Positions 19,025 through 21,305 of a stretch of 64,000 nt of DNA are shown here, one piece after another. Made by a program: the position numbers and the translations under genes. The stretch comes from Arthrobacter antioxidans (GTDB lineage Bacteria > Actinomycetota > Actinomycetes > Actinomycetales > Micrococcaceae): contig NZ_CP095501.1 of assembly GCF_023100725.1 (NCBI RefSeq), forward strand, positions 1,426,001 through 1,490,000, in the 5' to 3' direction. A model generated the notes under the pieces. That model had not been told where the DNA came from. It was given only the letters and a program-made list of their open reading frames with translations, and did not search any database. Positions within the stretch are counted from its first letter, which is position 1. The number at the start of each line of letters is the position of its first letter.

Positions 19025-19402
19025 ATGGCACTCTCGGAACACGAGCAGAGGTTGCTTGATCAGCTTGAACAGCAGTTACACGCCGACGATCCCAAGTTCG
19101 CGCACTCCATGGCCTCGGACAGTCGCAAGTCGATGTCGACCAGGCGTCTTGTCATCGGTTCACTCATCACGATCGCCGGCATCCTCGTCCTCCTGGCGGG
19201 TATCGTCTGGCAGAACATCTTCATCGGCGTCGCCGGCTTCCTGATCATGGGAGCCGGCGTGTACTTCGCCACGACGAAGTCGAAGCAGGTCGACACCGGC
19301 CAGCCGATCGGCAAACCGTCCAAGGCGGCCACCGGAGGCAAGAGCGGTTTCATGTCCAGCCTCGAGGACAAATGGGACGAACGGAAGCGCGACCAGTCAT
19401 AG
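19025..19402 (+). CDS. DUF3040 membrane protein
   Basis: Small actinobacterial membrane protein regularly found just upstream of mraZ; function unknown. The 125 residues start with the family signature ALSEHEQRLLDQLEQQL, then two transmembrane helices (about 42-60 and 64-83), then a basic hydrophilic tail. The ATG is preceded by a near-perfect AAGGAGG. It has its own promoter and a terminator, so it is probably not cotranscribed with the dcw cluster. Its conserved position hints at a link to envelope growth; that is an inference. Confidence 0.85.
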   Translation: MALSEHEQRLLDQLEQQLHADDPKFAHSMASDSRKSMSTRRLVIGSLITIAGILVLLAGIVWQNIFIGVAGFLIMGAGVYFATTKSKQVDTGQPIGKPSKAATGGKSGFMSSLEDKWDERKRDQS

Positions 19403-19427
19403 GAGCCTGAGCACTCCACCGCACTGC

Positions 19428-19461
19428 AGAAGGATCCGCCTCGGCGGGTCCTTCTTCGTTT
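19428..19461 (+). terminator. Intrinsic terminator after the DUF3040 gene
   Basis: AAGGATCCGCC and GGCGGGTCCTT (19430-19440 and 19443-19453) form a stem with one G-U pair, followed by the T-rich CTTCGTTT. Confidence 0.75.
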
Positions 19462-19576
19462 AAGTCCTCCACTTCGCTCCCCACGGGATCGGGGGGCGCC
19501 AGTACGCCGTCACCAGCCGCCCGACCGCGACACGCGCCGACGAAAAGCGGCGCGGCGCGCCCCCATGAACGTTGAC

Positions 19577-19611
19577 CGGGGAGAGTTGTGGAGTAAAGTG
19601 GGGAATATAAG
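19577..19611 (+). promoter_or_regulatory. mraZ promoter with MraZ-type direct repeats
   Basis: GGGGA, TGGAG (19589) and TGGGG (19599) stand in the same orientation with 10-12-base spacing, including AAAGTGG at 19595-19601. This is the pattern of MraZ boxes, through which MraZ represses its own cluster. TATAAG (19606-19611) follows as a -10, so the repeats lie over the -35 region. Confidence 0.65.
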
Positions 19612-19662
19612 AGCGAAGCGGCACCACGCCGGGCTTGGTGGACTCAGAACAGGCGGTCATGG

Positions 19663-20094
19663 ATGTTCCTCGGAACTCATAACCCCCGCCTGGATGAAAA
19701 AGGCAGGCTCATTCTCCCTGCGAAGTTCCGTGAGGAACTGAGCGAGGGGCTGGTCCTCACGAGGGGCCAGGAGCGGTGCATCTACGTCTTCAGCATGAGT
19801 GAGTTCGAGAGGGTTCACGAACAGATGCGCACGGCTCCCATCTCGTCACGCCAGGCGAGGGACTACAACCGCATCTTCCTCTCGGGAGCCTCGGACGAGG
19901 TACCCGACAAGCAGGGCAGGATCACCATCCCGCCCGCACTGAGGACCTACGCGGGACTCGACCGGGACCTGGCGGTGATCGGGGCGGGAAGCCGCGCGGA
20001 GATCTGGGCGGCGGACGCCTGGGACTCCTACCTGACGGAGAAGGAGACGGCGTTCTCCGAGACGGACGAGGACGCCTTCCCGGGCATCATCTGA
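19663..20094 (+). CDS. mraZ: Transcriptional regulator MraZ
   Basis: First gene of the dcw cluster; a DNA-binding protein that forms rings and represses the mraZ promoter. The 143-residue product has the two AbrB-like half-domains: [23 protein letters not shown] at the N-terminus and [24 protein letters not shown] in the second half, each with the diagnostic DxKGR(L/I) turn. The ATG at 19663 is chosen from the conserved MFLGT start; a nearby ATG at 19659 is out of frame. Confidence 0.95.
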
Positions 20095-20137
20095 ACGACA
20101 GCACGACAGCACGACGGCGCAGGTGGGAACGTCCCTT

Positions 20138-20231
20138 GGATGAGATCTCCAGCCGCCGGATCCGGTACGCCTCCTGGCTTCACTTCCCCGAAGCCAGGCG
20201 ACGACCTTCCGGCCGGATGGGGGTCTGATCC
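20138..20231 (+). ncRNA. Long structured leader RNA before rsmH (mraW RNA motif candidate)
   Basis: The 209-base mraZ-rsmH gap can fold into one long hairpin. The outer stem is 20138-20150 with 20219-20231 (13 positions, one G/G mismatch, two G-U pairs). A middle stem joins 20153-20160 with 20208-20216 (one bulge). The apical hairpin is a perfect 9-bp stem, 20173-20181 with 20190-20198, with loop ACTTCCCC. A structured element called the mraW RNA motif has been described at this place in actinobacteria. I assign it by position and structure, not by alignment to its consensus. Confidence 0.6.
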
Positions 20232-20248
20232 AAGAAGGCCGACCTCCC

Positions 20249-20293
20249 TTCCTGCCTGCAGTGAAACCCGAGACGAGTACCGACTGCAGGAAG
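20249..20293 (+). repeat. Inverted repeat next to the rsmH ribosome binding site
   Basis: CTTCCTGC(CTGC)AGT at 20249-20263 is complementary to ACTGCAGGAAG at 20283-20293 apart from a 4-base insertion. The right arm abuts the AGAGGA ribosome binding site of rsmH, so this fold could compete with translation or with the upstream hairpin. Confidence 0.5.
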
Positions 20294-20303
20294 AAGAGGA
20301 CGC

Positions 20304-21305
20304 ATGAGCGGTGACCGGCCGACGGGGGAGCGTCACGTCCCCGTCCTCCGCGACCGCTGCGTCTCCCTCCTCGCGCCTGCCGTCGCTGCAGCGGAAGCCG
20401 CCGGTCGGCGCGCGGTCGTCGTCGATGCCACGCTCGGCATGGGGGGCCACTCCGAGAGCATGCTCCAGCGTTTCCCCGATGCACACCTCGTCGGCATCGA
20501 CCGCGACACCGAGGCGCTCGTGCTCGCCGGCGAACGGCTCGCCCCGTACGCGGCACGCACCGACCTGGTCCACGCCGTGTACGACGAACTGCCAGAGGTG
20601 CTCGAGGACCTCGGGATCGACGGCGTGGACGGCGTCCTCTTCGATCTCGGCGTCTCCTCCCTGCAGCTCGACGAACGCGAGCGGGGGTTCGCCTACTCCT
20701 ACGACGCGCCGCTCGACATGCGCATGGACACGAGCCGGGGCATCACGGCGGCCGAGGTGGTCAACACCTACCGCGAGGACGAACTCCTCCGCATCATCCG
20801 CACCTGGGGCGAGGAGAAGTTCGCCGGGAGGATCGCATCGGCGATCGTGCGGGCGAGGGAGACCGAGCCGTTCCGGACCACGTCCCAGCTCGTGGACGTC
20901 ATCCGCGGCGTCGTGCCTGCTGCCGCGGCCCGCACCGGTGGCCACCCCGCCAAGCGCACGTTCCAGGCGTTGCGGATCGAGGTCAACGAGGAACTCACCG
21001 TCCTCGAACGGGCCATCCCCGCAGCCATCGGCTCCATCCTGACCGGCGGCCGCGTCGTCGCGATGTCCTACCACTCCCTGGAGGACCGCATCGTGAAGAG
21101 CGCGTTCACCGCCGGAACGAAGTCCTCTGCGCCCGTCGGATTCCCGGTGGAACTCGAGGAGCACAAGCCCTACCTCCGATCCCTGACCCGCGGCACAGAA
21201 GCGCCCACCGCGGCGGAGATCGAGGAGAACCCGCGTGCGGCATCGGCCAAGCTGCGGGCAGTTGAACGAATCAAAGCCGGACCCGTCGACAGGAAGACCA
21301 CATGA
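20304..21305 (+). CDS. rsmH: 16S rRNA (cytosine(1402)-N(4))-methyltransferase RsmH
   Basis: SAM-dependent methylation of C1402 in the ribosomal P site. The 333-residue protein begins HVPVLRDRC, has the SAM-binding loop [16 protein letters not shown], then [34 protein letters not shown] and [18 protein letters not shown], all family signatures. The C-terminal part has the conserved [14 protein letters not shown] at 20304 with AGAGGA upstream. Its stop overlaps the ftsL start by four bases (ATGA), so the two are translationally coupled. Confidence 0.96.

Follow-up and report, generated by a model that had tools for sequence, protein, structure and literature searches.

The window (the whole 64 kb stretch of DNA analysed) carries mraZ followed on the same strand by rsmH, also called mraW, with a leader of 209 bases separating the mraZ stop at 20094 from the rsmH ATG at 20304. 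FtsL is encoded at the same locus (NCBIfam match NF053549). The features of the locus are:

19572..19599, + strand: promoter-like site upstream of mraZ (TTGACC, 16 bases, TAAAGT; a consensus match only)
19663..20094, + strand: mraZ (NCBIfam match MraZ TIGR00242)
20127..20246, + strand: mraW RNA, match to RF01746 (Rfam covariance model)
20135..20234, + strand: hairpin 1, outer and nested stems (inverted repeat, fold, compensatory changes)
20173..20198, + strand: head hairpin, the innermost of the mraW RNA (fold; head pattern scan)
20183..20189, + strand: CUUCCCC of the head loop (sequence; leader comparison)
20245..20300, + strand: second inverted repeat, arms 20245-20262 and 20283-20300, specific to a subclade
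about 20290..20300, + strand: purine-rich ribosome binding site of rsmH (sequence)
20304..21305, + strand: rsmH, ATG at 20304 (NCBIfam RsmH TIGR00006)

The promoter-like site is overlapped by the word GTGGAGTAAAGTGGGG (19588-19603), which we take to resemble MraZ boxes. Scanned with a simple consensus, the interval 19400-20500 showed nothing terminator-like on the coding strand: no G+C-rich hairpin with a U run behind it, the mark of an intrinsic attenuator, came up.

The only Rfam match over the cut-off in the 64 kb was RF01746, the mraW RNA, at 20127-20246. All 107 model positions were aligned, and the score of 50.3 bits exceeded the gathering cut-off of 50 by a small margin (0.3 bits). The original prediction had recognized a hairpin here, named it the actinobacterial mraW RNA, and was to be given up if neither a covariance-model match nor compensatory changes in related genomes were found. 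The match was found and the name holds, as does the hairpin, whose outer stem (20135-20141 paired with 20228-20234) is three pairs longer than the 20138-20231 first proposed. Folding of 20127-20246 gave -66.6 kcal/mol (z -5.9), which none of 200 shuffles equalled. As in RF01746, the model is matched over its full length, the element lies upstream of rsmH in an actinobacterial host (the relatives are Actinomycetes), and the loop is CUUCCCC, flanked in the window by CCUG and CAGG; unlike RF01746, the window scores barely over the cut-off and adds the second repeat at the ribosome binding site. It is close to certain that hairpin 1 belongs to the mraW RNA, a known family to which the window adds a new member, ordinary and well supported. 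Known since 2010, the family has had no function assigned to it, and in the relevant part of the original description the table gives its riboswitch status as '?' (Weinberg et al. 2010, PMC2864571). The motif is also given as one of the core RNAs of mycobacteria (in the relevant part of PMC9569102) and predicted in C. pseudotuberculosis (likewise in PMC3890534).

RF01746 matched 51 of 57 genomes (that of the window plus 56 relatives), over the cut-off in 22, and matched all 34 other genomes of the window's genus. In an alignment of 35 leaders from the genus (33 distinct rows), the 39 scored pairs of hairpin 1 were formed in 89.1% of cells, compared with 84.6% in shuffles. Both sides had changed in 15 of the 39 pairs (12.4±1.4 in shuffles, 24 of 500 reaching 15). 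Cells with a double-sided change numbered 67, which none of 500 shuffles reached (31.5±4.1). Registers slid along the stem gave at most 18 such cells. In the short helix in the middle (columns 35-39 with 77-80), only 59% of cells are paired. Hairpin 1 thus keeps its structure through compensatory changes. At the junction between mraZ and the rsmH-dcw genes lies a conserved, structurally constrained RNA hairpin with an almost invariant CUUCCCC loop. Could the palindrome instead act as DNA, as a protein-binding or promoter element? It is well placed for this, near the transcript start reported in corynebacteria (in the parts of those reports that treat this locus). The compensatory changes, however, preserve pairs and not sequence, the loop is strand-specific, and a simple scan found no + strand promoter-like site inside the element, so that we consider action as DNA very improbable.

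In the wider class, 188 of 296 genomes drawn matched RF01746 (82 over the cut-off). Leaders were taken for part of the matching genomes and rsmH loci for most of the non-matching ones; the survey was later enlarged by one family, two genera and 80 named records found via RsmH. This gave 381 loci, 374 of them with a usable RsmH match, standing for 372 genomes or records. The element lay between an upstream mraZ and a downstream rsmH in all of the first 79 loci (the window's included). The loop core TTCCCC was present in 322 of the 325 leaders with mraZ upstream, the other three leaders being 39, 9 and 24 bases long by an approximate measure. Choosing loci with the RNA model selects for the loop, so the sets found via RsmH were counted separately: TTCCCC was present in 64 of 66 leaders from genomes without an Rfam match and in 55 of 56 leaders of named records. 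With one head taken per genus label (141 heads), TTCCCC was preceded by C in 99%. At least one head was called in 318 of the 325 leaders by a stem-score rule of our own, which found such a hairpin in 2.1 of 294 shuffled leaders; head counts exclude a local-folding caller, which missed clear heads. Two extra RF01746 matches, in G515 and G583, proved to be an unrelated perfect inverted repeat. An origin of the loop from MraZ boxes, considered in a by-eye comparison, was discarded, the shared word not being general.

The survey leaders varied in other respects. In L149, L150 and L357, mraZ and rsmH overlap or almost touch, and the mraW RNA is absent. Five leaders (L131, L160, L214, L283 and L291) have a second CUUCCCC close 3' of the head with no called hairpin of its own. 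In 48 of the 322 leaders with mraZ and the loop (for example L138, L140, L078, L084 and L332), a small ORF that is not seen in the window lies between the mraW RNA and rsmH. It ends at the rsmH start and has one hydrophobic segment (43-75 amino acids among the 21 shown); three products tested had no Pfam or NCBIfam match over the cut-off. A ribosome-binding-site word like GGGUCGAG precedes rsmH or the small ORF in 41 of the 322 leaders (for example L018, L086, L117 and L140).

The distance from the last loop to the rsmH start, measured in 322 leaders with approximate starts, ranged from 25 to 392 bases (median 136), a spread that speaks against a general mechanism in which the ribosome binding site is masked directly. 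This bears on the second inverted repeat, which had been predicted beside the rsmH ribosome binding site and is indeed there. Its arms (20245-20262 and 20283-20300) are 78% complementary and hold a perfect 8-base pair of arms (20248-20255 with 20286-20293), and the right arm extends into the purine-rich site at about 20290-20300. The stretch 20240-20310 folded with z -3.4, none of 200 shuffles being as good, and the longer 20225-20325 with z -2.4 (4 of 200). The original prediction read the two hairpins as a translational or attenuation switch, opening and closing the rsmH site. The position of the repeat against that site and its local fold speak for such a switch. So does the retention of the CCUGC/GCAGG core in all 18 leaders of one subclade, where the mean pairing probability of the ribosome binding site was 0.64, compared with 0.44 in the 17 genus leaders without the core. 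Yet the core is limited to 18 of the 35 genus leaders; the remaining 17 all lack it, and three of them (L039, L042 and L043) have a different hairpin. Within the 18 leaders, the whole stem paired in 63.8% of cells versus 63.5% in shuffles, and 143 of 500 shuffles equalled the covariation score. Eight pairs had changed on both sides, a mild excess over shuffles (5.4±1.5; 43 of 500 as high). RNAalifold kept six core pairs in these leaders, with compensated changes in none. Slid registers paired in at most 49.2% of cells, as expected for a stem derived from one of the aligned sequences. Compensatory changes, which the original prediction had proposed to look for in both stems, were thus found in hairpin 1 and were missing from the conserved core of the second repeat. 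In addition, both hairpins coexist in one predicted minimum-energy fold of the leader rather than excluding each other. With a core confined to about half of the genus, pairing at the shuffle level, no competing folds, no terminator-like site in the scanned interval and the variable spacing noted above, the switch was not borne out, and we regard it as improbable. The second repeat is a subclade addition and not part of the general mechanism of the family. Because the rsmH site is more paired in leaders with the core, the repeat may lower rsmH translation in this lineage, as far as pairing predictions go.

A C-rich loop might also act by base pairing. In S. aureus, pairing between the 3'UTR and 5'UTR of icaR can bring a C-rich motif downstream of this regulator gene to its own Shine-Dalgarno sequence. 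The CUUCCCC loop could pair with the Shine-Dalgarno sequence of mraZ or rsmH and block the translation site. The mean duplex energy over 241 loci was -10.4 kcal/mol at the mraZ site and -7.7 at the rsmH site, compared with -6.9 at shuffled rsmH sites, with many of the start codons approximate and several of the mraZ starts not start codons. In L135 (genus code g93) and L164 (genus code g52), both of f44, the mraZ ribosome binding site contains a perfect 9-base complement of the extended loop. But GGGGAAG occurs in 3 of 114 mraZ sites, the loop ranks fifth among 21 orders of the same letters when G-U pairs are allowed, and the duplex in the window is weak (-4.1 at mraZ and -6.7 at rsmH). Unlike in icaR, such pairing is here no better overall than that of permuted words, which did equally well or better save for L135 and L164. 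We rejected it as a candidate, and hold it to be an unlikely mode of action.

We then asked what becomes of the element where mraZ is missing. No mraZ preceded rsmH in 47 loci, from Streptomyces (24) and the genus code g45 (23). A Pfam MraZ search of 10 g45 genomes found nothing in nine and, in the tenth, one match at the cut-off level far from rsmH. TTCCCC was missing within 200 bases of rsmH in 30 of the 47 leaders; in the other 17 it was present, not always in a head. The 3' arm of the outer stem was kept in 16 of the 47 loci, nine of which lacked TTCCCC within 160 bases. Stem and loop are both kept in three loci without mraZ (S. griseus, L316; Streptomyces sp. XM4193, L327; S. morookaense, L343), and Streptomyces sp. 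DvalAA-14 (L362) has both mraZ and the element. The comparison suggests, without amounting to proof, that the loop comes under relaxed constraint after loss of mraZ: the losses are related, and few of them are independent, all of these loci being from Streptomyces or g45. In 40 of the 47, a word of the GTGGACTAAAGT type, resembling the window's word before mraZ, lies 108-292 bases upstream. Three leaders without mraZ (L116, L327 and L343) also show a second CUUCCCC close 3' of the head with no called hairpin of its own.

The stem-score rule called two head hairpins in 44 of the 325 mraZ leaders. Most of these (31) came from one genus code, g95, where RF01746 matched all 37 genomes and all 30 loci fetched alongside have two heads. 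Since Rhodococcus yunnanensis (L376, listed under Rhodococcoides) has head sequences identical to those of g95, this genus is probably Rhodococcoides. The other two-headed leaders are L142, L147, L148, L151, L163, L191 and L376 and, from named records, those of Citricoccus sp. CH26A (L308), Nocardioides sp. Root682 (L347), a Rhodococcus MAG (L349), Prescottella subtropica (L360), Herbiconiux oxytropis (L374) and a Microbacteriaceae bacterium (L375). Doubling is fixed in a Rhodococcoides-like genus and occurs also in Citricoccus, Herbiconiux, Prescottella, Nocardioides and others. On a FastTree tree (the quickest tree type) of 137 MraZ plus RsmH rows, 16 of them two-headed, the one- or two-head label required 10 changes, gains and losses taken together and at least 9 by starred branches, compared with 15.3 for shuffled labels. 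For L147 and L148, whose heads differ in stem sequence, separate hairpins are predicted. In the g95 type the two heads are nearly identical, and the predicted fold pairs one with the other in place of two hairpins, which counts against two separate heads there. With the Rfam model, which is single-headed, a search of 13 two-headed loci at E 0.01 recovered 5, of which two exceeded the cut-off. In the three alignments shown, the extra head, which sets these relatives apart from RF01746, was placed as an insert of 34, 40 or 42 bases. The portions of the mraW RNA literature surveyed, in which doubling was itself no subject of search, hold no mention of two-headed forms.

How might the element work? 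A 26-base head pattern (up to two mismatches) had exactly one match per genome in the 35 genomes of the genus, and among more distant relatives G048 had two, side by side. The single match makes a partner dedicated to this locus likelier than a regulon. The reading we prefer, plausible if a little short of probable, is that of a cis-acting element at the mraZ-rsmH junction, which would set rsmH-ftsL output relative to mraZ and be read through its head loop by such a partner. The hairpin would act within the transcript from the mraZ promoter and determine the amount of the rsmH-ftsL part made. The head hairpin with its loop would be the working part, presented by the long stem, and the putative partner could be a protein or an RNA; the second repeat would be an extra outside this mechanism. 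A junction role is supported by the 30 of 47 mraZ-less leaders without TTCCCC, by the nine without it among the 16 that keep the 3' arm of the outer stem, and by the absence of the element where mraZ and rsmH nearly touch.

The main rival to the junction-element reading is RNA processing, in which the hairpin would be a cut site (for example, of RNase III) parting mraZ from the rsmH-dcw message, and might free a short, stable RNA with the C-rich loop, possibly acting in trans. Transcripts of the motif are reported in the passages on it in studies of C. glutamicum (PMC3890552; PMC4046766, where it is among the leader RNAs) and C. diphtheriae (PMC5784534). The rsmH transcript of C. glutamicum starts 16 bases before the motif end (PMC3890552), so that its 5' end falls within the 3' portion of the motif, as it would after a cut, and in C. 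diphtheriae the start follows the motif (PMC5784534). Both studies target primary 5' ends, however, which points to a promoter rather than to cutting. Such starts inside or after the motif also tell against the junction element, because part of the rsmH mRNA would then lack the hairpin. The rsmH leader of M. tuberculosis gives rise to a 60/30-nt RNA that is high on arrays (in the part of PMC3526491 describing it), but the authors see a sigma-B-like promoter upstream of it, and it is not placed exactly on the hairpin. RNase III cleaves the C. glutamicum mraZ message, but the cut sits in the mraZ coding region (as cited in PMC8247434). Finally, cutting alone leaves the unchanging loop unexplained. 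Processing is in our view rather unlikely, yet weightier than pairing, switching or action as DNA. A known leader RNA comparable to the mraW RNA is UpsM of the Rhodobacter sphaeroides dcw cluster, which is structured, processed and placed before dcw genes. According to the relevant part of its description (PMC5089854), UpsM differs in sitting before mraZ and having a Rho-independent terminator; the scan of the mraW leader here showed no terminator-like site on the coding strand.

A broader, tentative possibility, to which we give less credence than to the junction element itself, takes the head as a self-contained, one-locus module, doubled at about ten places in the tree with its loops intact and with a loop that decays after mraZ loss. 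Such a module could be a dose-sensitive control point that, throughout Actinobacteria, couples mraZ to the genes of cell division, through an RNA-binding partner or a released RNA with the C-rich loop. What deserves following is the doubling of the heads and what becomes of the loop once mraZ is lost; the second repeat is a local addition. Many two-headed members escape the current covariance model. The comparison points to the head loop as the likely active part of the mraW RNA. The natural variants now on hand, namely one-headed, two-headed, loop-decayed (Streptomyces without mraZ) and element-less (mraZ and rsmH nearly touching), make reporter and pull-down experiments interpretable.
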